Shown: piece by piece, positions 21,936-33,883 of the stretch
How the letters are laid out: every line of letters begins with the position of its first letter
How positions within the stretch are numbered: position 1 is the stretch's first letter
Source: an uncultured cyanobacterium
Lineage (GTDB): Bacteria; Cyanobacteriota; Cyanobacteriia; Cyanobacteriales; FACHB-T130
Direction of reading: 5' to 3'
Assembly: GCA_936920195.1 (NCBI GenBank)
Contig: CAKZHE010000252.1
Location: 1-64,000 of the forward strand
DNA: 64,000 nucleotides
Made by a program: the position numbers and the translations under genes
The notes under the pieces: generated by a model
Database searches by the model: none
What the model was told of the DNA's origin: nothing
What the model saw: the letters and a program-made list of their open reading frames with translations, nothing else

Positions 21936-22004
21936 GGTGAAAAGCGATCATTACCACCCCCATCTCAATCATAAATCAAACCTGATTGGGCTTATCCGCC
22001 AAAA

Positions 22005-22146
22005 TCAATTATTCTGGCTAGCGATAAATTGCTGAATCTTGTCAATGTTGATTTTTAACTCTTCAGCAATTTGCTCAGTCGTTAGTCCCAACTTTAAGAG
22101 CAAAGGCACTGTTTTTACCTGAGTTCGATATAAGCAAATAAGCTAC
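22005..22146 (-). pseudogene. C-terminal remnant of an Rpn/DUF4351-type transposase-like protein
   Basis: On the minus strand a short open stretch reads TVPLLLKLGLTTEQIAEELK followed by INIDKIQQFIASQNN and a stop. This matches the C-terminal tail typical of cyanobacterial Rpn-family (PD-(D/E)xK, putative transposase) proteins. There is no start and no N-terminal domain; an in-frame stop lies exactly at the CAST boundary. It is a fragment outside the transposon. Confidence 0.6.
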
Positions 22147-22385
22147 TGTACATTAACGAATTAATTGTCACTTTAACAAATTAATGTCTCATTCTTTCTC
22201 CAAGCGCTGTAATCCTTTCAAAACAAGGATTACAGCGCTTTTTTACTGTTTCAACCTCTGCGTTCTTCATTCCTATTGAATTAACAAATTAAATGTCTGA
22301 CCCCCGAAAATTCACAAATTAGGTGTCACTTCCTAAAACTGCGATTTTTTTGAGCTTGATCCGAGATTAACACATTGACTGTCAC
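22147..22385. repeat. tnsB-side transposon end with TnsB-binding-like repeats
   Basis: The terminal TGTACATTAACG starts at 22147. Motif copies: 22152-22171 (ATTAACGAATTAATTGTCAC), 22172-22190, 22279-22299, 22310-22329 and 22364-22385, all sharing TTAACA-A-TT...TGTC in the same orientation. The first two are adjacent; the others are spaced out up to the tnsB promoter region, so TnsB could also repress its own operon by binding here. Confidence 0.88.
22202..22246. terminator. Strong hairpin inside the tnsB-side end
   Basis: The arms AAGCGCTGTAATCCTT and AAGGATTACAGCGCTT (16 bp, exact) are followed by TTTTTT. It lies between the second and third end repeats. It looks like an intrinsic terminator that would stop transcription entering the transposon from the flank. 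Confidence 0.75.
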
Positions 22386-22428
22386 AGCTTGATCCTTTAA
22401 AATACAAGTATGTTTTAATCAAACACTA

Positions 22429-24135
22429 ATGTTTATGTCTAAGGCCGATCTCTCGGAAACAATTTCAGATGAGAGGGACAATCTCAAAGAAGCCAATACC
22501 ATCGCCTCTGAACTTGATGACGAGGCAATGCTGAAAATGGAAGCAATCCAACGCTTGATGGAGGCAGGCGATCGCGCCACTTATTCTCAACGGCTAAAGG
22601 AAGCTGCCGAAAAGCTGGGCAAGTCGGTGCGGACGGTGCGACGGTTAGTCCATAAATGGGAAGAACAAGGGCTGTTGGGTCTGGTTCAAGCTGAACGCTC
22701 TGATAAAGGTAAGCACCGAGTTGATACCGACTGGCAAGATTTCATCCTCAAAACCTATCGGGAAGGAAATAAGGGTAGTAAACGGATAACCCCGAAACAG
22801 GTTTTCCTAAGAGTGCAAGCAAAAGCTCATGAATTAGGGGTTAAGTCTCCAAGTCACATGACTGTTTACCGCATTCTTAATCCTTTAATTGAAAAACAAG
22901 AAAAAGCTAAAAGCATTCGCAGTCCAGGGTGGCGAGGGTCGCGGTTGTCAGTTAAAACCCGCTCTGGTAAAGATTTGGCAGTAGAGTACAGCAACCAGGT
23001 GTGGCAATGCGACCACACCCGCGTCGATCTGTTGTTAGTAGATCGGCACGGCGAGATTTTAGGCCGTCCTTGGCTGACAACTGTTATTGACAGCTATTCT
23101 CGTTGCATTATCGGCATTAATTTAGGTTTTGATGCTCCCAGTTCTCAGGTAGTTGCTTTAGCATTGCGTCATGCTATTTTGCCGAAGCAGTACAGCGCAG
23201 AATATGGTCTGCATTGCGACTGGGGAACCTATGGGAAACCAGAGCATTTTTATACTGATGGTGGTAAGGATTTTCGTTCTGAACATTTGAGTCAGATTTC
23301 GGTGCAGTTAGGGTTTGTTTGCCATTTGCGCGATCGCCCCTCTGAAGGCGGTATTGTTGAGCGTCCCTTTGGCACATTGAATACAGAGGTCTTTGCCACT
23401 TTGCCGGGATATACGGGGTCAAATGTCCAAAAACGACCGGAAGATGCGGAAAAAGAAGCTTGTTTGACCCTGCGGCAGTTAGAGCAGTATTTAGTCCGTT
23501 ATATCGTTGACAACTACAACCAGCGACTTGACGCTCGTATGGGCGACCAAACAAGGTTTCAACGGTGGGAATCTGGTCTATTGGCTATGTTGCCTTTAAT
23601 CGCAGAAAGAGATTTGGATATCTGCCTGATCAAACAGTCTAGACGAACGATTCAAAGGGGCGGCTACTTGCAATTTGAGAATTTGATGTACCGAGGCGAT
23701 CGGCTGGAAGGCTATGCCGGAGAAAGTGTGGTACTGCGATTTAACCCTAGAGATATTACAACTATCTTGGTTTATCGGAATGAAGGCAGTAAGGAGGTGT
23801 TTTTAGCCCGTGCTTATGCTCAGGATTTGCAAACGGAGCAACTGTCTTTGGATGAGGCTAAAGCTAGCAGTCGCAAGATTCGGGAAGCAGGTAAGGCAGT
23901 TAGTAACCGTTCGATTTTGGCAGAGGTACGCGATCGCGAAACTTTCTTGACTCAAAAGAAAAGCAAAAAGGAACGTCAAAAATCTGAACAGATTGAAGTT
24001 CAAAAAGCTAAAAAGTCATTACAGAGTGAGTTTGAAGCTGAAGAAATAGACTTGGCAGATATTGAAAATGAACCTGAACCAGAAATGCCAGAAGTCTTTG
24101 ATTACGAACAAATGCGGGAAGATTACGGGTGGTAA
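22429..24135 (+). CDS. tnsB: TnsB, DDE transposase subunit of the V-K CAST
   Basis: 568 aa. N-terminal helix-turn-helix region (about 35-90, including GKSVRTVRRLVHKW), a second HTH region, then the RNase H-fold integrase core with the catalytic triad Asp in QCDHTRVD (about 195), Asp in YTDGGKDF (about 275) and Glu in GGIVERPFG (about 307). A Mu-type beta-barrel and a charged C-terminal tail (about 490-568) follow; in known V-K systems the tail contacts TnsC. It binds the end repeats and performs strand transfer. The stop is 3 bp before tnsC. An alternative ATG at 22435 removes two residues. Confidence 0.96.
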   Translation: MFMSKADLSETISDERDNLKEANTIASELDDEAMLKMEAIQRLMEAGDRATYSQRLKEAAEKLGKSVRTVRRLVHKWEEQGLLGLVQAERSDKGKHRVDTDWQDFILKTYREGNKGSKRITPKQVFLRVQAKAHELGVKSPSHMTVYRILNPLIEKQEKAKSIRSPGWRGSRLSVKTRSGKDLAVEYSNQVWQCDHTRVDLLLVDRHGEILGRPWLTTVIDSYSRCIIGINLGFDAPSSQVVALALRHAILPKQYSAEYGLHCDWGTYGKPEHFYTDGGKDFRSEHLSQISVQLGFVCHLRDRPSEGGIVERPFGTLNTEVFATLPGYTGSNVQKRPEDAEKEACLTLRQLEQYLVRYIVDNYNQRLDARMGDQTRFQRWESGLLAMLPLIAERDLDICLIKQSRRTIQRGGYLQFENLMYRGDRLEGYAGESVVLRFNPRDITTILVYRNEGSKEVFLARAYAQDLQTEQLSLDEAKASSRKIREAGKAVSNRSILAEVRDRETFLTQKKSKKERQKSEQIEVQKAKKSLQSEFEAEEIDLADIENEPEPEMPEVFDYEQMREDYGW

Positions 24136-24138
24136 ACC

Positions 24139-24981
24139 ATGACTAAAACCAACAATGAAGCCCAAGCAGTTGCCCAACAATTAGGGGATATTCCCCTTAA
24201 TGATGAAAGATTACAGGCAGAAATTCAACGCTTAAACCGGAAGAATTTTATCCCGCTGGAGCAGGTAAAAATGTTGCATGATTGGCTAGAAGGAAAACGC
24301 CAATCGCGGCAATCTGGTCGTGTGGTGGGAGAGTCAAGAACGGGTAAAACTATGGGTTGTGATGCCTATAGGTTGCGTCACAAACCGCACCAGGAAGCAG
24401 GAAAACCGCCGATAATACCTGTTGCTTATATTCAGATTCCCCAGGAGTGCGGCTCTAAGGAGTTGTTTGGAGTAATTATTGAGCATCTAAAGTATCAGGT
24501 AACAAAGGGAACAGTAGCAGAAATTAGAGATAGGGCGCTACGGGTTCTGAAGGGTTGTGGCGTGGAAATGCTAATTATTGATGAGGCTGACCGCTTGAAA
24601 CCCAAGACTTTTGCAGAGGTACGAGATATTTTTGACAAGTTGGAAATTGCGGTGATTTTGGTGGGTACTGACCGCTTGGATGCAGCAATTAAGCGGGATG
24701 AACAGGTATATAATCGCTTTCGGGCTTGTCATCGTTTTGGCAAGTTGTCAGGGGAAGATTTTAAACGCACTGTAGAGATTTGGGAAAAGCAGGTTTTACG
24801 GTTGTCGGTTGCTTCCAATCTTTCTAGTAAGACGATGTTGAAGACTTTGGGGGAAGCAACTGGGGGTTATGTGGGTCTGCTGGATATGATTCTCAGGGAA
24901 GCAGGGATTCGGGCTTTAAGAAAGGGATTGCAGAAGATTGATTTGGAAACGCTAAAGGAAGTATCTGGGGAGTACAAGTGA
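24139..24981 (+). CDS. tnsC: TnsC, AAA+ ATPase regulator of the V-K CAST
   Basis: 280 aa, an AAA+ ATPase of the TniB/TnsC type: Walker A GESRTGKT (about 65), Walker B MLIIDEADRLK (about 145), then a sensor-like VILVGTDRLD. In V-K systems TnsC polymerises on DNA next to the Cas12k-TniQ complex and recruits TnsB. It is the short V-K form without a long TnsA-binding tail, in keeping with the absence of tnsA. It overlaps tniQ by 4 bp (ATGA), so translation is coupled. Confidence 0.96.
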   Translation: MTKTNNEAQAVAQQLGDIPLNDERLQAEIQRLNRKNFIPLEQVKMLHDWLEGKRQSRQSGRVVGESRTGKTMGCDAYRLRHKPHQEAGKPPIIPVAYIQIPQECGSKELFGVIIEHLKYQVTKGTVAEIRDRALRVLKGCGVEMLIIDEADRLKPKTFAEVRDIFDKLEIAVILVGTDRLDAAIKRDEQVYNRFRACHRFGKLSGEDFKRTVEIWEKQVLRLSVASNLSSKTMLKTLGEATGGYVGLLDMILREAGIRALRKGLQKIDLETLKEVSGEYK

Positions 24982-25505
24982 TGGAAGCCCTAGATATCGA
25001 GCCTTGGTTATTTCGAGTAGAACCCTTTGAGGGTGAGAGTATAAGTCATTTTTTGGGGCGGTTTCGACGGGCAAATGAGTTAACGCCAACTGGGTTGGGT
25101 AAGATGGTGGGATTGGGAGGAGCGATGCCTTCGGCGGGCTTCGCCTACGCTCGTTGGGAAAAGTTTCGCTTTAATCCGCCTCCTTCTCGTCAGCAGTTGG
25201 AAGCGTTAGCGGTAGTGGTGGGGGTGGAGAGCGATCGCTTAGTCCAGATGTTACCGCCTCCTGGGGTAGGAATGAAAATGGAGCCGATTCGGTTGTGTGG
25301 GGCTTGTTACGCTCAGTCGCCTTGTCATAAGATTGAGTGGCAGTTTAAGGCGACAACGGGGTGCGATCGGCATTCCTTACGCTTGCTGTCGGAGTGTCCT
25401 AACTGTGGGGCGAGGTTTAAGGTTCCGGCGTTGTGGGTTGATGGGTGGTGTCAGCGGTGTTTTCTGGGGTTTGCAGAAATGGTGAGGTATCAGAAGATTT
25501 GTTGA
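24978..25505 (+). CDS. tniQ: TniQ, targeting adaptor of the V-K CAST
   Basis: 175 aa, the small V-K type. The N-terminal TniQ signature EPFEGESISHFLGRFRRANE is clear. Zinc-binding pairs follow in LCGACYAQSPCH and in CPNCG...CQRC. It bridges Cas12k/crRNA and the TnsC filament. It is about 8 residues longer than I recall for the ShCAST protein. The extra residues (GGAMPSAGFAYARW region) are encoded by a palindromic 29-bp dispersed repeat at 25122-25150, i.e. an in-frame repeat insertion. Confidence 0.95.
   Translation: MMEALDIEPWLFRVEPFEGESISHFLGRFRRANELTPTGLGKMVGLGGAMPSAGFAYARWEKFRFNPPPSRQQLEALAVVVGVESDRLVQMLPPPGVGMKMEPIRLCGACYAQSPCHKIEWQFKATTGCDRHSLRLLSECPNCGARFKVPALWVDGWCQRCFLGFAEMVRYQKIC
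25122..25150. repeat. Palindromic small dispersed repeat inside tniQ
   Basis: The segment GCGATGCCTTCGGCGGG continued by CTTCGCCTACGC is a well-known kind of cyanobacterial short palindromic repeat (GCGATGCC..CGGCGGGCT..GCCTACGC). Here it lies in frame within tniQ and adds about 8 residues. Confidence 0.75.
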
Positions 25506-25681
25506 AAATCACAGATATTGTCAAATCACATGAAGAACAATAAACCAAAAATCGCTAAAGCCCATAATACATAATGGTTTCAGCGATTTCACTATATTCC
25601 TAATTCAGGGATATTGGCTGGTCAGTCACATAACCGTCACATAAAACAAACTTATGCAATACAAGCTTTTCTATAAAAGAT

Positions 25682-27139
25682 TTATGCCCAAAATGGTACA
25701 TATTTAGCGTGTTTTCTGGATTTATTTTCTAAATCATAGGCTCTGATTAATCCTTCATTGATTGTATCTGCGATAATTCGTGAAGCCATAGAGTAATTTT
25801 TGTCATCAATTGCAAATCGTTTTCGCAAAGATTCATTAGTCATTTGTTCTCGACATACAAACCTTAAACAGGCGTGCTGGTAACAAGCTCTTATTCGATC
25901 GCTCTTATCCATATCTTTTAGTTCTCTATAAGTAAATAAGAGAACTTCAGTATGTTTACCATTGACGTTAAATTCTGGAGCAGGTAATTGAAAAACTTCT
26001 ACTGAATGAATTACTTTATCTATACCGCTACCACGTTCTTCACAAATATTAATTCTTCTCATAAAAGCAGCTAAATTTTCATTGCGAGATTGAGGTGGTA
26101 AATCTATAAAACGCATTGTATCAACTAATGGTTCGCCAGGGTTTCTAATTTCCATTCGATCGGAAAATATCTCAATGGTAGAACTAACACCAGTCATATT
26201 AAAATCTTGATGGATTATAGCATTAGCCACTAATTCTCTAATGGCAATCTCTGGATACATTTTGATGTTTTTTCGTACTGCTTGACCAATTTGTTCATTT
26301 TGCGGCAGTTGCTCGTTAATAAATTTAATGATTTCTTCATAACTAACAGCGTAGCCTTTATCGAATACCTGTTCTCTTTGAGTAGAAATTCGATCTTTTT
26401 CTTTGTATATAATTACTCTAATCGCTTTTCTTCCTAGTTTTTCAAATTCTGTTAACTTTTTAGCAAAAAGAATTGCACCAAAATTAGTGATATCATAATA
26501 ATTACTAAGCTTTATGTTAATTAAATTTTCCGATGCCAAACGGTCTAAAATACCTTGCTTATTATCTGGAAGGTTTTGTTGTGTGAAATCGAAATAACTT
26601 GGATAATTTATTTTTGCTAAAACTTCATCTGCGCTTATATTTTCTAATGCAATTCCCTTTTCAAACGGTTGGCGAGAAAACAATGACCATAACTCTCTCT
26701 CTTTTTCTGTAAAATCTTTGAGCTTTTTTTTATAACTACCTACACGAATGTACTCAACTCCTTTAAAACTAATAGGTATATGAGCGGCTTTTGGTATCTC
26801 AAACAAAACAATATCTTTACTCTCGCAAGTAAATTCATAAATTCTAAAATCTATTCGTGGTTCAAGTTGTACGGCAAGCCAGTTTTCTAGTTCTTGGCCT
26901 TTGATTTTTTCTTGCTTCGGTTTAAATTTTGTACCTATAATATTGTGGCTTTTATCATCAATCCCCCAAATAAGGTAAGCAGTTTGCTGATTATGTAGTG
27001 TAGCAGAGTTTGACAAAGCCGACAGATATTCACCAATAAGCTCTGGATTTGTATTATCTTTTTTGAATTCAACCCATTCTGTTTCATTTGGAAGGGCTAA
27101 TAATTGTTGTAGTAACGGTATTAAATGCTTGGTTTCCAT
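25682..27139 (-). CDS. AlbA_2/Schlafen-type putative DNA- or RNA-binding protein (CAST cargo)
   Basis: 485 aa. The N-terminal AlbA_2 domain has ETEWVEFKKD and LSALSNSATL with YLIWGIDD (about 15-130). A central region with ELVANAIIHQDF, IRNPGEPL and RGSGIDKV resembles the C-terminal HATPase-like half of COG2865 proteins. A winged-helix-like tail follows. These proteins often accompany type I-like restriction modules, where their role is unclear. It is the third gene of the cargo operon, 47 bp after the specificity subunit, on the opposite strand to the transposition genes, and AT-rich. Confidence 0.82.
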   Translation of the reverse strand: METKHLIPLLQQLLALPNETEWVEFKKDNTNPELIGEYLSALSNSATLHNQQTAYLIWGIDDKSHNIIGTKFKPKQEKIKGQELENWLAVQLEPRIDFRIYEFTCESKDIVLFEIPKAAHIPISFKGVEYIRVGSYKKKLKDFTEKERELWSLFSRQPFEKGIALENISADEVLAKINYPSYFDFTQQNLPDNKQGILDRLASENLINIKLSNYYDITNFGAILFAKKLTEFEKLGRKAIRVIIYKEKDRISTQREQVFDKGYAVSYEEIIKFINEQLPQNEQIGQAVRKNIKMYPEIAIRELVANAIIHQDFNMTGVSSTIEIFSDRMEIRNPGEPLVDTMRFIDLPPQSRNENLAAFMRRINICEERGSGIDKVIHSVEVFQLPAPEFNVNGKHTEVLLFTYRELKDMDKSDRIRACYQHACLRFVCREQMTNESLRKRFAIDDKNYSMASRIIADTINEGLIRAYDLENKSRKHAKYVPFWA

Positions 27140-27186
27140 AACGATTTTTGCTCTCCTTTTCTGGTTTTTGTTCAGCCTGAAAATTT

Positions 27187-28641
27187 TTATACTTTGATAG
27201 AAGTGAGATTTTCAATCTGACGGATGGCCTCTCGTTCTTTCTGCCAAGCTTCATCGCGCAACGCATTAGCTTTGAGAACTAAATCTCCAATCTCGTTTCT
27301 GATAGTTGGCACAGGTAATGGGATGGGAACAGAGGCAAGCATATCAAGATCAATGTGTACAATGACCGAACCATAAGAATGTCTTGTTATAAGACAATAA
27401 CCATAATCGGAGGCAAGCCAAGTGTAAAGATAGCCAGCGTTGATATCAGATGCAGCTAGTATTCTCGTTGCGTCTTCACTAGCTGTCCAATCTGCCATAT
27501 ATTTAGGAATAATTTGTACCCGTCCAATTGTACCGGAGCGAGTTATAGCAATCATTCCTTCTTCTAACTGGATTTCAGGTAAATCTTTAGTATGAGCGCC
27601 TTTTGCTAATCGCTTGACATCTATGGGATCGATTTGAAAAATCTGCTTGCTACTAAGCATCGGAATTCCACCACGAGGAACATACGTTCGTTCGCGGAAT
27701 TTGGTAATTGCTCTAATTTCCTTAGTAACTCGTTCATCACCAATAGTGGTAATTTCTACTGGCAACTGCTTTAACTTCTGTTCCGCTTTAATGGCGATCG
27801 GATCGTGAAAACTTGCTTCTAAGCGTCCAGCAAGTTGAGATGCTTTAACTCTAGATGTTAAACAACCGCTATTGCTTGATGTTAATGAGTCCAAATAAGG
27901 CAGATTCAGATGTGCGTGTAAAAGCCTATCCGCTTCATCTAATAAACGATTGGCTTCATCTCTTAGTTTTCCAGCTTCACACATCAATCGTCCAATAGCA
28001 ATTCGACGCAGCGGGTGTAAATCGGGAATAACTATTCGTGTTAGGTGTTCCGGTTCAATATGGACAATAACTGAACCGTAAGTCGCTTGAAGAAGTTGGG
28101 GACGACCTAAACGACTGCGGAGAAAAGCCGCGACATAGCCAGCAGTATCAGGGTCATTGCTACGAAGACGGATAGCGTGTTCGGATAAGGCTTTTCCAGC
28201 CATTATTGCTGTTGCTAAAGCAACATTTCCTATAGTGCCAGAGCGAGAAATGAGAACATCCCACATCTCGACTAAAAACTTATTTACATTAGGTGTTAGC
28301 TTGCGACTTAGAAACCGTTCTATTTTGGGTCGCAAGCTAATAATGTCAGAACTCGATAAAAATGGTACACCCCAATCTGGACTTACTGAAGTTCGTTTAA
28401 GTCGAAATGGTTTTGCAGGCTGCTGACACAAACCTTCATTCCCACACAGAGGAACCAGAGGTAAACCACTTGCTCGTAACTTAGCAACAGCATTACGAGC
28501 CTCAATACTAAAATTAGAGGCTTCTAAGCGAACTCCAGCATCAAAAACTTCCGTTAAACGGACTGTAGTAGAAAGCTTTTCAGGCTCCGTTACCGGGGCT
28601 GAAGGGATAGGCGTTGGTTGTACATTTGTTCGTTTTACCAT
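27187..28641 (-). CDS. Restriction-modification DNA specificity subunit (HsdS/BcgI B-like; CAST cargo)
   Basis: 484 aa from the ATG that overlaps the stop of the upstream gene by 7 bp (ATGGTAA); an earlier TTG at 28665 is less likely. Two target-recognition halves are plain: SRSGTIG and TRSGTIG, and YGSVIVHI present in both. Each half is followed by a helical spacer (RLMCEAGKLRDEANRLLDEA; DEAWQKEREAIRQI). Two TRDs predict a bipartite recognition sequence. It would direct the nuclease-methyltransferase encoded just upstream. Confidence 0.9.
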   Translation of the reverse strand: MVKRTNVQPTPIPSAPVTEPEKLSTTVRLTEVFDAGVRLEASNFSIEARNAVAKLRASGLPLVPLCGNEGLCQQPAKPFRLKRTSVSPDWGVPFLSSSDIISLRPKIERFLSRKLTPNVNKFLVEMWDVLISRSGTIGNVALATAIMAGKALSEHAIRLRSNDPDTAGYVAAFLRSRLGRPQLLQATYGSVIVHIEPEHLTRIVIPDLHPLRRIAIGRLMCEAGKLRDEANRLLDEADRLLHAHLNLPYLDSLTSSNSGCLTSRVKASQLAGRLEASFHDPIAIKAEQKLKQLPVEITTIGDERVTKEIRAITKFRERTYVPRGGIPMLSSKQIFQIDPIDVKRLAKGAHTKDLPEIQLEEGMIAITRSGTIGRVQIIPKYMADWTASEDATRILAASDINAGYLYTWLASDYGYCLITRHSYGSVIVHIDLDMLASVPIPLPVPTIRNEIGDLVLKANALRDEAWQKEREAIRQIENLTSIKV

Positions 28642-30620
28642 CTCAGCACCACCTGTTTTTTCCAATCTAGAAACTCGTCTGCCAAAACAGGCGTATCATC
28701 ATCTAAAATTTTACGACGCGGTAAAGGTCGAACTGTGGCATCACCGGAAGCAGTTCTTTCCAACAGAGGGGTAATTTCTGACTCGGCAGGTGCAAGTAGT
28801 TCTTCACCATCTTCATTCCGCTTGTAAACCTTATTACCGCGCTTATCATGCCCAATGGCATTGACTTGAGCCATAAAAATTTCATAGTCTCGAATTCCTT
28901 CAAATGCTTCTCGATTCATCTCTTCTTCTGTTTTTTTCTGAAGTATTAAAACAGAAGTTTGCGTACCGTTACGAGGCTGAAAGGTATCGGGGTGAAGATC
29001 GATCGAGGCAATTACCTGACAATGAGTTAACATCCAATAACGGACATATAGCAGACCGGGCGCACCTAAAATAGCATCTGGCAGCACAATTGCCATGCGT
29101 CCACCTGGTTTAAGAAATTGCCAACATCTTTCAATAAAAAGAATTTCCGGGGGTTGAGAACCTTGTAATACCTCAGTAGGTTCCCATCCATTTTCTGTTT
29201 CTTTCCAAACATGACCTAGTTTATATTGTCTCAGAGTTTCTGTGTCTTTTATCGGTAACTTAGAACCAAACGGAGGATTTGAAGCAACAACGTCAAAATG
29301 CGCTAAATCTTTTGAACTACGCAAAGAATCTGGATCGATATTGAGGGAATCAGCAAGCTGTCTGCGAAAAGTATCTTCCCACTGATGAGGGTGTAATAGG
29401 CTATCTTGTCGCAAAATATTTCCAGACCCGTCATTATTCATCACCATATTCATTTTGGTGGCTTTAACAAGGTCGGGATTGATATCTATTCCAAAGAAAC
29501 ATTGACCAGCAACTTCTTTAATGCGATCGCGCAAGGCTTCTAAAAAACCACTGCTACCAGGAACTCCGAGAGAGGCTTTTAGTTGATTAATCATTTCATT
29601 CATAGCGATTACTAAGAAACCCCCTGTACCGCAAGCCGGATCGAGAAACTTTTCATCTACTTGTAAATCCAGCATTTTGACTGCCATTCTTTGTACGTTT
29701 CTAGGTGTGAAAAACTCTCCGCGATCGCCCCGCAGATTTGCACCCACTAATTCTTCATAAGCTTTTCCTTTTACATCAATATCTGTATCCAGAAAGCTAT
29801 ATCGTTGAAGCTCGCCTACTATATAAGCCAAAGATCGAGCTTGAAGCTTAATAGCATCGTTAGCATCAAAAATGGTTGGATATCTTTTTTTTACAGCTTC
29901 AAAAATTTTACCAATTCGTTTAGCAACCGTTAGCCGACCATCATTGCTGGCTTTTTCCGAGGCAGTAGCATAAAACTCAAGAGGTTTAGGGACATCGCGT
30001 TCATCGTGAATTTTGCAAAAAATCACTTTCAGCAATTCAAAGAAAGCTGGCTGTTTTTGAAGTCCATCAGTAACGTAAATATGGTTATGGCAAATTTTAA
30101 ACGAGAATAAGAGGTTATCGTCTGTTGCGTGTTTTAACTGTTCTCTAGTTGGACGATTGACTTCTTCTACATTACCATTACTGGATGGGATATCATTGGG
30201 TTCTTCCCAAACAGTTTGTCCTTCTACAACTACCCTTCGGTAGACAAATTTGTACTTTCCATTTGTCCACATTCCCCATTCAGCATTTGGACAAACAGAC
30301 ATATAAGACTTAAGTTGCTCTACACCATCTTTACGATCTGATGGCTCAATAGAGTCTCGCTTACATTCGATTACGATCCAAGCATTATCTTGGGTATGTT
30401 CGTCACCCTCACGAAAAATAATGAGGTCAGCACGACCACGTTTACTAAAAACTTTTACAGGAAACTCTACGGCAATTTGTTTAAAATTGTAGGCCAGTTC
30501 CAAGACAAGACGACGCTCAATATTTTGACGAACATATTCTTCTGGCGTATCATTACGAATTTTTTGGTCAATGAAGTCGCAGATTTTACCATCTGGGATA
30601 GTCATCAGTATCTTGGACAT
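28635..30620 (-). CDS. Nuclease-N6-adenine methyltransferase fusion, BcgI A-like (CAST cargo)
   Basis: 661 aa. An N-terminal HSDR_N-type domain carries a PD-(D/E)xK motif: Asp65 in GRADLIIF, Glu85 and Lys87 in VIECKRD. A helical region precedes an N6-MTase core with motif I DPACGTGGFL (about 330) and motif IV NPPFG (about 448). The fusion plus a separate two-TRD subunit, with no hsdR helicase gene present, resembles type IIB enzymes such as BcgI, which cut on both sides of a bipartite site. It could equally be a modification-only module if the nuclease site is inactive. Confidence 0.88.
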   Translation of the reverse strand: MSKILMTIPDGKICDFIDQKIRNDTPEEYVRQNIERRLVLELAYNFKQIAVEFPVKVFSKRGRADLIIFREGDEHTQDNAWIVIECKRDSIEPSDRKDGVEQLKSYMSVCPNAEWGMWTNGKYKFVYRRVVVEGQTVWEEPNDIPSSNGNVEEVNRPTREQLKHATDDNLLFSFKICHNHIYVTDGLQKQPAFFELLKVIFCKIHDERDVPKPLEFYATASEKASNDGRLTVAKRIGKIFEAVKKRYPTIFDANDAIKLQARSLAYIVGELQRYSFLDTDIDVKGKAYEELVGANLRGDRGEFFTPRNVQRMAVKMLDLQVDEKFLDPACGTGGFLVIAMNEMINQLKASLGVPGSSGFLEALRDRIKEVAGQCFFGIDINPDLVKATKMNMVMNNDGSGNILRQDSLLHPHQWEDTFRRQLADSLNIDPDSLRSSKDLAHFDVVASNPPFGSKLPIKDTETLRQYKLGHVWKETENGWEPTEVLQGSQPPEILFIERCWQFLKPGGRMAIVLPDAILGAPGLLYVRYWMLTHCQVIASIDLHPDTFQPRNGTQTSVLILQKKTEEEMNREAFEGIRDYEIFMAQVNAIGHDKRGNKVYKRNEDGEELLAPAESEITPLLERTASGDATVRPLPRRKILDDDTPVLADEFLDWKKQVVLRW

Positions 30621-30718
30621 TTTTGTATTACCTTGACTTTTTGATGCGAAACAGATTTTGTTTTAATACCAAAAAGGTGCTAAGACACATTTTGGAGCGA
30701 TCGCCTCTTTTTCCGCAC

Positions 30719-31162
30719 TCAGGCACATTTCCCCCAGTCTTTCAACCTCACCTCTAACTGCTGATGAATAACATCTAACCATACTGGCACAACAGGCAAC
30801 CCCTCTGCCCAAAGTGCGATCGCCTTTGAGCTATCAAACTCAACTAAATCAAAAGATTGCTCAGTAGGATGGCGGTACAGCATTAACCGGACTCTTTGGG
30901 ATGGGCTAAAAAACTCCGGTTCCCTTTCCTTCAAAGTCTTCAGCGTTTCCCTCGCCAACTCAAAACTCAACCCCACAGACAGCCAATAGGCGATCGCTGC
31001 CAGTTCTACCAAATTAGACCGCGAATAGTAAATACTCCGTCCCGTCCCCGTTTCCGTAATTACAGGGACAACAACCCCACTCTCTCGCCAATACTGCAAC
31101 TGGCGTAGGGAACAGCCTGTAATTTCTGCCGCTTGCTTGGTGGTAAAAAAAGTCTCTTGCAT
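30719..31162 (-). CDS. MerR-type regulator of the CAST (CvkR-like)
   Basis: 147 aa. The N-terminal MerR winged helix (TTKQAAEITGCSLRQLQYWR, then GRSIYYSRSNLVELAAIAYWL) is followed by a helical segment and a short C-terminal domain. There is no Cys cluster for metal sensing. It is encoded divergently from cas12k with a 68-bp shared promoter region. CvkR proteins in this position repress cas12k and the tracrRNA/crRNA in characterised V-K systems, which is the likely role here. Confidence 0.9.
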   Translation of the reverse strand: MQETFFTTKQAAEITGCSLRQLQYWRESGVVVPVITETGTGRSIYYSRSNLVELAAIAYWLSVGLSFELARETLKTLKEREPEFFSPSQRVRLMLYRHPTEQSFDLVEFDSSKAIALWAEGLPVVPVWLDVIHQQLEVRLKDWGKCA

Positions 31163-31189
31163 AAAATTTATTTTACAGAAAGCTCAGTC

Positions 31190-31224
31190 TATACATCTGT
31201 GTTAGTATTAAACATAAATGTATA
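31190..31224. promoter_or_regulatory. Candidate CvkR operator in the cvkR-cas12k divergent promoter
   Basis: TATACAT (31190) and ATGTATA (31218) form an inverted repeat in the 68-bp gap. Inside it ACAT-N2-ATGT (31212-31221) is a tighter dyad. ACAT/ATGT half-sites are those reported for CvkR (from memory). The site lies just before the cas12k ATG, where binding would block transcription. Confidence 0.55.
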
Positions 31225-31230
31225 AAGCCG

Positions 31231-33147
31231 ATGAGCCAAATCACGATCCAGTGCCGCCTAGTCGCCTCAGAATCAACCCGCCGCCAACTTTGGGAGTTGA
31301 TGGCAGATAAAAACACGCCCCTAATTAACGAATTGTTACAACAAGTAGGCCAACATCCCGATTTCCTCACCTGGCGGCAAAAAGGCAAGCTTCCCAGTAC
31401 AGTAGTTAGCCAACTGTGCCAACCCCTCAAAACCGATCCTCGTTTTGCTGGACAGCCCAGCCGTTTTTATCTGTCAGCCATTCATGCCGTAGACTATATC
31501 TATAAATCTTGGTTAGCCATCCAAAAACGCTTACAGCAGAAGCTTGAAGGGAAAACCCACTGGCTAGAAATATTTAAAAGCGATGCTAAATTAGTCGAGA
31601 CTAGCGATCGCAGCTTAGAGGCTATTCGCATCAAAGCCGCTGAAATTTTGGCTCAAGCTACATCTTCCCCTGACTCAAAATCCACTCTACCCAAACAGAA
31701 AAACAGCAAGAAGGCTAAAAAAACCGTATCCTCAGACTCAAGCCGCCGCCTTTCTACTACTCTATTCCAGGTTTACCGAGAAACAGAAGACATCCTGACT
31801 CGCAGCGCTATTAGTTACTTACTCAAAAATGGATGTCAAATCAGCGAACAAGAAGAAAACCCCGAAAAATTTGCTCTGCGTCGTCGTAAACTAGAAATCC
31901 AAATCCAACGGATTAGCGATCAATTAGATTCTCGAATGCCCAAAGGTCGAGACTTGACCAATGAGAAATGGTTAGAAGCCTTAACACTTGCCACAACTAC
32001 AGATCCTCAAGACAATGCCGAAGCTAAACGCTGGCAAGATATTCTTTTAACTCGTTTCAGTTGTCTACCCTTCCCTCTGATCTATGAAACCAATGAAGAT
32101 ATGGTTTGGTCAAAAAACCAAAAAGGTCGCCTTTCTCTTCATTTCAATGGTTTAAGAGACTTGACTTTTGACATATATTGCGATCGATGTCAGCTTCACT
32201 GGTTCCAACGCTTCCTAGAAGACCAGCAAACCAAACGCAGCCACAAGAACCAACATTCTAGTAGCTTATTTACCTTGCGAAGCGGACATTTAGCTTGGCA
32301 ACAAGGTGAAGGCAAAGGAGAGCCTTGGAATGTCCACCATTTAACTCTATACTGCTGTATAGATACGCGATTATGGACTGCCGAAGGAACAGAACAGGTA
32401 CGTCGAGAAAAAGCTGATGAAATTACCAAATTCATCACTAAAATGAAAGAAAAAAGTAACCTCAGCGAAACGCAACAAGCCTTCATTAACCGCAAAGAAT
32501 CTACCCTCAAGCGCATCAACAATCCTTTTCAGCGTCCCAGTCAGCCCCTTTATCAAGGACAGCCTCATATTATAGTTGGAGTTAGCTTAGGCTTAGAAAA
32601 GCCTGCGACAGTAGCCGTAATAGATGTCATTAAAAATCAAGTTCTTACCTATCGCAATATTCGGCAACTACTTGGGGACAATTACAACTTACTCAATCGC
32701 CAGCGCCAGCAAAAGCAACGCTCATCTCGCCACCGCCATCAAGCTCAAAAACTTGCTGCTCCAAATGAATTTGGCGATTCAGAATTGGGACAATATATAG
32801 ATAGACTGCTAGCCAAAGCTATAGTAGATATTACTCAAACTTACCAGGCTGGCAGTATCGTCTTACCCAAGTTAAGTGATATCAGAGAAATTATCCAAGC
32901 CGAAATTCAAACGAAAGCTGAAAAAAAGTGTCCTGGCTATTTAGAAGGCCAGCAAAAATATGCCAAAGAGTATCGAGTTAACATTCATCAGTGGAGTTAT
33001 GGTAGACTAATTGATAGCATTAAAACTCAATCAGCCAAAAACAACATTATCATTGAAGAGGGAAAGCAACCGATTATCGGCAATGCCCAAGAGCAAGCAA
33101 GAGAATTAGCAATCTCAGCTTATCAATCTCGCCTCAAAAAAGGTTGA
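31231..33147 (+). CDS. cas12k: Cas12k, nuclease-dead effector of the V-K CAST
   Basis: 638 aa, the normal size. It begins MSQITIQCRLVASESTRRQL, the Cas12k opening. The RuvC-I equivalent is IIVGVSLGLEKPATVAVIDV (about 447), where the usual catalytic Asp of GIDxG is Ser. The basic RQQKQRSSRHRHQAQ helix and the later LPKLSDIREIIQAEIQ block are typical. It binds the tracrRNA/crRNA and the GTN PAM and marks the target for TnsC/TniQ without cutting. The stop overlaps the tracrRNA promoter. Confidence 0.97.
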   Translation: MSQITIQCRLVASESTRRQLWELMADKNTPLINELLQQVGQHPDFLTWRQKGKLPSTVVSQLCQPLKTDPRFAGQPSRFYLSAIHAVDYIYKSWLAIQKRLQQKLEGKTHWLEIFKSDAKLVETSDRSLEAIRIKAAEILAQATSSPDSKSTLPKQKNSKKAKKTVSSDSSRRLSTTLFQVYRETEDILTRSAISYLLKNGCQISEQEENPEKFALRRRKLEIQIQRISDQLDSRMPKGRDLTNEKWLEALTLATTTDPQDNAEAKRWQDILLTRFSCLPFPLIYETNEDMVWSKNQKGRLSLHFNGLRDLTFDIYCDRCQLHWFQRFLEDQQTKRSHKNQHSSSLFTLRSGHLAWQQGEGKGEPWNVHHLTLYCCIDTRLWTAEGTEQVRREKADEITKFITKMKEKSNLSETQQAFINRKESTLKRINNPFQRPSQPLYQGQPHIIVGVSLGLEKPATVAVIDVIKNQVLTYRNIRQLLGDNYNLLNRQRQQKQRSSRHRHQAQKLAAPNEFGDSELGQYIDRLLAKAIVDITQTYQAGSIVLPKLSDIREIIQAEIQTKAEKKCPGYLEGQQKYAKEYRVNIHQWSYGRLIDSIKTQSAKNNIIIEEGKQPIIGNAQEQARELAISAYQSRLKKG

Positions 33148-33174
33148 CAAATATCTGTACCTTGACAATATAAT
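33144..33174 (+). promoter_or_regulatory. Predicted tracrRNA promoter
   Basis: TTGACA at 33144-33149 and TATAAT at 33169-33174, spaced 19 nt, immediately precede the conserved tracrRNA start. The -35 box overlaps the cas12k stop codon. Confidence 0.6.
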
Positions 33175-33177
33175 ATA

Positions 33178-33440
33178 GTTAATAGCGCCGCAGTTAATGC
33201 TCGTCAGAGTTTCTGAACTGCGTAAGTGAGGGTTAGTTTGGCGGTTGGAAGACCGTCTTGCTTTCTGACCCTGGTAGCTGCTCACCCCGATGCTGCTGTT
33301 CCTTGCGGACAGGAATAAGGTGCGCTCCCAGCAATAAGGGCGCGGGTCTACTGCTGTAGTGGCTACTGAATCACCCCCGACCAAGGGGGAACCCACTCTA
33401 TTTATTTGAGGTCTTCCCACAGGTATTAAATTTCAACGTC
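33178..33440 (+). ncRNA. V-K tracrRNA
   Basis: The sequence follows the known V-K tracrRNA almost word for word: TTAATAGCGCCGC, GAGGGTTAGTTTG, TTGCTTTCTGACCCTGGTAG, CTGCTCACCCCGATGCTGCTG, GGTGCGCTCCCAGCAATAAG, CTGCTGTAGTGGCTACTGAA and ATCACCCCCGACCAAGGGGG. Anti-repeat 1 is AACCCACT (33390-33397), exactly complementary to AGTGGGTT of the delocalized crRNA. Anti-repeat 2 is TTTCAAC (33431-33437), complementary to GTTGAAA. The 3' end is estimated. Confidence 0.95.
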
Positions 33441-33451
33441 AATCCGCGCAA

Positions 33452-33494
33452 GTTTCAAAACCTTTATTTGGTCTGGATTCGAGGGGATTGAATG
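33452..33494 (+). CRISPR. Degenerate CRISPR repeat-like sequence
   Basis: The 5' part GTTTCAAAACC and the 3' part GAGGGGATTGAATG match the two ends of V-K repeats (GTTTCAA..AACC ... AGGGG..TTGAAAG), but the middle is altered and the unit is 43 nt instead of about 37. No second matching repeat is found, so this is at best an eroded relic of the main array. Confidence 0.4.
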
Positions 33495-33559
33495 ATGAAG
33501 AAATATTACTTGTGAAAGAGGCACAAAAGGGGATGGTCAAGAGATCCGCGCATTTTAAC

Positions 33560-33593
33560 TCTAAAACCTTTGTTAACAAAGGGTTTGGGAGAG
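33560..33593. terminator. Hairpin between tracrRNA and delocalized crRNA
   Basis: The arms around CTCTAAAACCTTTGTT and AACAAAGGGTTTGGGAGAG are largely complementary around GTTAAC. There is no clear T run. It could end the tracrRNA transcript or be a processing structure before the crRNA. Confidence 0.4.
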
Positions 33594-33646
33594 TGCAGTT
33601 CCAACAGCCCTCTCCAATGGAAGCGGATGGATTAATTTATTAATAA

Positions 33647-33675
33647 GTGGGTTGAAAGCGAGTCCAGTTGTGTCC
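33647..33675 (+). CRISPR. Delocalized (homing) crRNA: half-repeat plus 17-nt tRNA-Val spacer
   Basis: GTGGGTTGAAAG (33647-33658) is the 3' end of the V-K repeat. The next 17 nt, CGAGTCCAGTTGTGTCC (33659-33675), equal the minus-strand sequence of 33811-33827 in tRNA-Val(GAC). The genomic protospacer is preceded by GTT, a valid GTN PAM; here the crRNA copy is preceded by repeat sequence, so the transposon spares itself. The following base differs (T versus A). The unit sits just inside the transposon end. Confidence 0.95.
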
Positions 33676-33681
33676 TTTAAT

Positions 33682-33766
33682 TTGACACGAATTTGGCTAA
33701 ATGAACATCCAATTTGTTACCGTGACACTAATTTGTTACCAGTGACAAGGAATCTGTTAATGTACA
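33682..33766. repeat. tRNA-side transposon end with TnsB-binding-like repeats
   Basis: Read inward from TGTACATTAAC (ending at 33766), motif copies lie at 33741-33766, 33722-33740, 33701-33721 and 33682-33699. All have the TAACAAATT...TGTCAC form seen at the other end, in inverted orientation. Confidence 0.88.
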
Positions 33767-33809
33767 CCTAAAAGCGCCACAACCCTGTACAGGAAAGGGT
33801 TTGAACTAA

Positions 33810-33883
33810 TGGACACAACTGGACTCGAACCAGTGACCCCCACGATGTCAACGTGGTGCTCTAACCAACTGAGCTATGCGTCC
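33810..33883 (-). tRNA. tRNA-Val (anticodon GAC), CAST target site
   Basis: A 74-nt cloverleaf on the minus strand. The acceptor GGACGCA pairs with TGTGTCC. The anticodon stem-loop is CCACG-TTGACAT-CGTGG, giving anticodon GAC. The TPsiC arm reads GGTTCGAGTCC. The discriminator is A and CCA is not encoded. The homing spacer of the adjacent CAST matches its TPsiC/acceptor 3' region. The gene remains intact because insertion is downstream. Confidence 0.96.

Follow-up and report, generated by a model that had tools for sequence, protein, structure and literature searches.

A type V-K CAST with a homing guide and an apparently collapsed CRISPR array in an uncultured cyanobacterium

Two pathways are believed to be common to all CRISPR-guided transposons (PMC11406308): homing to a safe site, and following plasmids with the guides of an array. 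Within type V-K, ShCAST and AnCAST are among the array-bearing systems of the literature, and the array has been described as always present after the tracrRNA (PMC9938897). CAST variants with a delocalized crRNA only, and no array, have been discovered according to a review in which details are absent (PMC11656645), and a word search for an array-less case in the main text of the source that it cites (PMC10293859) found none. Here we ask whether a V-K element in a 64,000-nt stretch of DNA from an uncultured cyanobacterium (the window) has lost its array, which parts of its guide system are left, and whether such an element is confined to homing.

Anatomy of the element and its homing guide

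The element lies between two TGTACA ends (Table 1); on direct reading, the terminus TGTACATTAAC stands at its left end and the reverse complement closes its right end. Its genes run in the order TnsB, TnsC, TniQ, cargo, MerR and Cas12k, followed by the tracrRNA, with tRNA-Val outside the element end. TnsB is 60–69% identical to the TnsB proteins of three relatives (L132, L133, L220), none of the eight element proteins scanned is TnsA-like, and the genome holds a single cas12k copy. The MerR gene adjoins the cas12k start in reverse orientation, the arrangement described for CvkR (PMC9938897). On its gene content the element is assigned to type V-K with all effector and transposition features present, and RNA-guided activity is predicted. 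The exception within the type is the short array of 37-nt repeats, which is absent.

Table 1 Features of the element and its target in the window
Feature	Coordinates	Strand	Basis
Type V-K CAST, complete, 11.6 kb	22147..33766		between two TGTACA ends
TnsB transposase, 568 aa	22429..24135	+	Mu-transpos_C and rve domains
TnsC AAA+ regulator, 280 aa	24139..24981	+	TniB PF05621, E 4.8e-33
TniQ, 175 aa	24978..25505	+	TniQ PF06527
MerR-type regulator, CvkR-like by family and position	30719..31162	-	MerR_1 E 1.3e-15
Cas12k effector, 638 aa, intact	31231..33147	+	NF038191 V_Cas12k, 972 bits, above cut-off
tracrRNA (core)	33182..33410	+	core motif at relatives' offset
tracrRNA anti-repeat AACCCACT	33390..33397	+	8/8 pairing with R*
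tracrRNA-3'/leader region, complete	33398..33597	+	collinear with seven array-bearing relatives
Single decayed terminal CRISPR repeat GTTCCAACAGCCCTCTCCAATGGAAGCGGATGGATT, GAAAG 3' handle lost	33598..33633	+	R1 profile and layout of relatives
Homing half-repeat R* AGTGGGTTGAAAG	33646..33658	+	R1 11.2 bits
Homing spacer, 17 nt	33659..33675	+	inverted repeat with tRNA-Val, 0 mismatches in 17
tRNA-Val target: protospacer 33811-33827, PAM GTT 33828-33830	33811..33830	-	
tRNA-Val	33810-33883	-	

An identical 5-bp target duplication is absent from the ends, where GCTAC (22142–22146) faces CCTAA (33767–33771), so the element may have been rearranged later. None of five family members showed its left flank next to tRNA-Val. 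A dispersed repeat of ~115 bp occupies this flank at 22003–22117, and three more copies (81–83%) lie on contigs C147, C130 and C95. The cargo at 27187–30620 encodes a methyltransferase and a specificity subunit that resemble two MADS defence proteins, MAD2 (621 bits) and MAD5 (322 bits), both scoring below the NCBIfam cut-offs; no other MADS genes were seen, and a Schlafen/AlbA_2 protein (25682–27139) adjoins these MAD-like genes.

The tracrRNA is located downstream of cas12k, where both the conserved core and the anti-repeat keep their usual offset. Anabaena 7120 served as the model for placing its putative start 35 nt past the cas12k stop (PMC9938897); an Rfam search matched tRNAs only and no tracrRNA or CRISPR model. 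R* contains RGTGGGTTGAAAG, whose one exact occurrence in the genome is here, and the similarity of the adjoining homing spacer to tRNA-Val extends to 33682 (22/24). The element ends ~61 bp from the GTT PAM, within the 46–82 nt published for V-K elements (PMC9938897). R* followed by a 17-nt homing spacer to a tRNA, a GTN PAM and a MerR regulator are all shared with array-bearing V-K CASTs (PMC9938897). Judged by the 17/17 target match, the PAM, this distance and the compensated pairing described below, R* and its homing guide appear functional.

In the minimum-energy fold of the presumed precursor (33185–33675), AACCCACT is paired with R* across the leader, over a distance of 248 nt. We found no intrinsic terminator between the anti-repeat and R*, which fits the joint tracrRNA–array precursor of Anabaena 7120 (PMC9938897). 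Within the clade of the window element, the pair AACCCTCC/GGAGGGTT has changed to AACCCACT/AGTGGGTT by two compensatory double changes that keep the pairing. Across 34 loci, anti-repeat/R* pairing reached 276, versus 245 ± 4 after swapping anti-repeats among loci in a test that leaves locus relatedness uncontrolled; 0 of 10,000 swaps reached the observed value. As a separate observation, unbroken anti-repeat pairing in Cas12k loci L045–L213 is longer for R* than for array repeats in 23 of 38 comparisons, equal in 7 and shorter in 8 (sign test p 0.011). Anti-repeats with T at position 6 form a T-T mismatch with the array repeat that R* mends in 14 combinations. A near-universal array-repeat mismatch at position 6 (26/32 loci favouring R*) was considered and rejected: the signal was weaker in a larger set, came mostly from one T-group and is a tendency only.

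The array region

The region between the anti-repeat and R* is that of an array-bearing element up to the point at which the array would begin. Positions 33430–33595 align end to end with the anti-repeat-to-first-repeat region of seven relatives that have arrays, at a score of 86 (shuffles 30.9 ± 4.5, with 0/300 equal to the real alignment). Two CGCGC leader motifs are spaced 102 nt apart in the window and ~99 nt apart in L045, which speaks against any repeat insertion in this stretch. The array-bearing Nostoc sp. WHI (L045) and Nostoc sp. KVJ20 (L046) share gene set, gene order, tracrRNA and leader with the window element.

No periodic repeats were found in the element, and no repeat pair encloses a spacer. 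We built a sequence profile (R1) from 29 aligned V-K repeats taken from the arrays of relatives and ran it over the whole 5.7 Mb assembly, a 326-contig draft that is 95% complete. It returned two matches only, both partial, at 33598–33627 and 33642–33658. In positive controls, R1 gave 25–36 bits to the array repeats of L045 and L050, 17 bits to the last repeat of L050 and 10–12 bits to the half-repeats of both. By these scores the window half-repeat resembles the half-repeats of array-bearing elements, and the longer window repeat is clearly decayed. Over its first 30 nt this repeat reaches 10.3 bits (E 8e-4 within the interval), and in a separate shuffle test 0/300 shuffles did as well; it occupies the repeat-1 position of array-bearing relatives and runs into R*. 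In L045, L046, L063 and L066, a last repeat without GAAAG is followed by a ~20-nt AT-rich linker and then R*. The window has the same layout, but directly behind the leader. Two to fifteen repeats separate leader and R* in array-bearing V-K CASTs; here there is none with a working handle.

A preliminary description of this DNA had proposed that the array is lost and the homing crRNA kept, which is now well supported. Its statement that no matching repeats bound a spacer is borne out across the element by periodicity and the R1 profile. It was wrong about the relic, naming a repeat-like unit at 33452–33494 and overlooking the true remnant at 33598–33633. As counter-evidence we searched the 95% complete assembly for a second true repeat or for an array able to pair with AACCCACT, and found neither. 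We conclude, with a probability of about 0.8, that this is a complete V-K CAST with a collapsed array, which has lost every spacer and every repeat with a functional handle and retains the R* homing mechanism.

Array-less relatives and fused homing guides

We took a census of 118 distinct Cas12k loci, ~112 of them assessable. Two or more repeats are present in nearly all assessable loci. In L096 and L108 we found no repeat at all, L156 and L203 have one, and a few further loci have one or two decayed repeats. TnsB, TnsC, TniQ and Cas12k are all open in L096, L108 and L156, and each of the three keeps a homing guide with its PAM. The 17-nt tRNA-Val spacer of L156 is identical to that of the window; L156 differs in retaining one good repeat (36.6 bits). 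No array was found in the ~40 kb read around L096 and L108, nor by R1 in their one-contig and three-contig genomes, respectively, R1 being blind to repeat divergence at the level of L107.

In the Cas12k tree, an array-bearing clade contains the window element (SH-aLRT 99), the array-bearing L089 is the sister of L096 (SH-aLRT 100), and L108 is placed among the array-bearing L107 and L194 (SH-aLRT 100). Array state requires four changes on this tree, L156 counted. The census counts and tree placements together indicate that array loss is rare and recurrent, and, as far as sequence and phylogeny can tell, the array-less state is one that a few relatives in different clades have reached separately. 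The window element, which the preliminary description had put forward as a minimal form of V-K CAST if its array is lost, is not the most minimal: L096 and L108 are smaller.

Several candidates did not withstand reading. L057, L070, L179 and L187 were array-less by automatic count, and repeats are present in all four; deletions have reduced L197 and L062 to relics; in L109, a second cas12k copy in the L108 genome, an insertion sequence follows the tracrRNA. Two of these loci have unusual layouts of their own. In L179 (G606:C108), 322–415 nt past cas12k, the homing half-repeat lies between the tracrRNA and the array, not behind the array. In L187 (G553:C14), 600–900 nt past cas12k, a second tracrRNA copy comes after the short array, and the homing guide is attached straight to it, as in L096 and L108.

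L096 (G368:C1:1563800-1569400) carries the anti-repeat AATCCGCTTT, ~20 nt, AAAGTGGATTGAAAG and then the guide, ~330–390 nt past cas12k. Its 17-nt guide matches tRNA-Phe at 17/17 positions, with PAM GTG. In L108 (G056:C1:998900-1004500), anti-repeat and half-repeat form one short hairpin, AGTTCTTTTAGAGAATTGAAAG, ~220–260 nt past cas12k; the gap between them is a few nt, and the guide target is tRNA-Leu. Both loci are also without a leader, their half-repeat folding back on the anti-repeat, whereas the window keeps its leader. By sequence, only L096 and L108, and not the window element, have a short hairpin that joins guide and tracrRNA. These two look like natural single-guide RNAs, with the homing guide mounted on an anti-repeat/half-repeat hairpin. 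The fold of L108 has no stability beyond that of shuffles (z 0.5), and the fold of L096 exceeds theirs only moderately (z -1.9); the two hairpins therefore rest on observed pairing and not on folding energy. The fused homing guides may be new relative to the literature searched, which omitted key subscription papers and preprints.

Likely history, alternatives and significance

From the anatomy, the absence of other V-K repeats from the assembly, the guide–target match and the pairing with its compensatory changes, all of which are observed, we infer the following recombination, transcription, processing and activity steps. In the simplest history, the array was probably removed when its first repeat recombined with its last, and the product would be the leader, the handle-less last repeat and R*. 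The tracrRNA and R* would most likely be made as one precursor from a promoter behind cas12k. The anti-repeat AACCCACT would pair with AGTGGGTT of R*, and Cas12k, loaded with the 17-nt guide, would bind tRNA-Val at the GTT PAM, with TniQ, TnsC and TnsB inserting the element ~61 bp away.

The preliminary description had further stated that the element can only home to tRNA-Val. This appears to hold for RNA-guided transposition with the element's own guides; beyond that it is too strong. The element may also reach plasmids by untargeted transposition, with crRNAs from host arrays, or after spacer acquisition at its leader by a host type I-D Cas4–Cas1–Cas2 set. We regard this as a real possibility, a little short of even odds; it concerns the consequence of array collapse and is compatible with the anatomy described above. 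The host does carry a type I-D Cas4–Cas1–Cas2 set and a 4-repeat array, and its Cas1 scores 444.8 bits with the type I-D model TIGR04093 (cut-off 385). The element retains its leader, and the type I-D adaptation module has been proposed as the supplier of V-K arrays (PMC11406308). Off-site transposition is reported to be frequent for type V-K CASTs in heterologous hosts (PMC11406308), and crRNAs from host arrays are reported to be usable by CASTs including V-K (PMC11656645). Against this, the remaining V-K repeat is decayed and thus not a good adaptation substrate. Read in the likely crRNA orientation, the host repeat forms a poor duplex with the anti-repeat (-7.9 versus -13.1 kcal/mol for R*), a weak objection given -12.7 kcal/mol in the other orientation.

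That the element is a dead relic whose array was lost by simple decay is unlikely. A relic would agree with the decayed last repeat and with ends that have no identical target duplication, but the four core proteins, TnsB, TnsC, TniQ and Cas12k, are all open and full length, and decay would not yield the joint change of the anti-repeat and R*. An assembly artefact is still less probable. Short-read assembly is known to handle CRISPR arrays badly, and a normal array might have been collapsed or dropped, or might lie on sequence missing from the fragmented draft. However, the surviving repeat is decayed and handle-less, leaving no canonical copy to bridge a collapse, V-K repeats are absent from every other contig, and the array-less L096 and L108 sit in near-closed genomes (one and three contigs). 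Finally, we give hardly any credence to the unit at 33452–33494 as a genuine degenerate repeat producing a second crRNA: although it begins GTTTCAA, finishes GGGGATTGAATG and is somewhat repeat-like in plain alignment to V-K repeats (1/300 shuffles as good), it scores 0.0 bits with R1, lies inside the stretch collinear with the relatives' leader, and pairs two anti-repeat bases through its GGGGATT before a mismatch, so that what was first described as a repeat is leader/tracrRNA-3' sequence.

With array collapse as the preferred reading, the window element would have the architecture of the delocalized-crRNA-only variants mentioned in the review (PMC11656645); it is an uncommon, stripped-down form of an already mentioned kind, documented here in more detail. 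Rather speculatively, and with more doubt than confidence, V-K CASTs may repeatedly shed their arrays toward single-purpose homing and end in natural single-guide RNAs, the window element being an early stage that retains its leader and in which the anti-repeat has been re-matched to R* alone.

The recurrent loss of arrays in intact elements suggests that, of the two pathways, homing alone can be sufficient for some time. Array-less elements are natural test cases for the spread of CASTs, and they reveal which component of the guide machinery selection retains. For V-K tools, the fused guides seen in L096 and L108 would offer single-guide designs that nature has already made.
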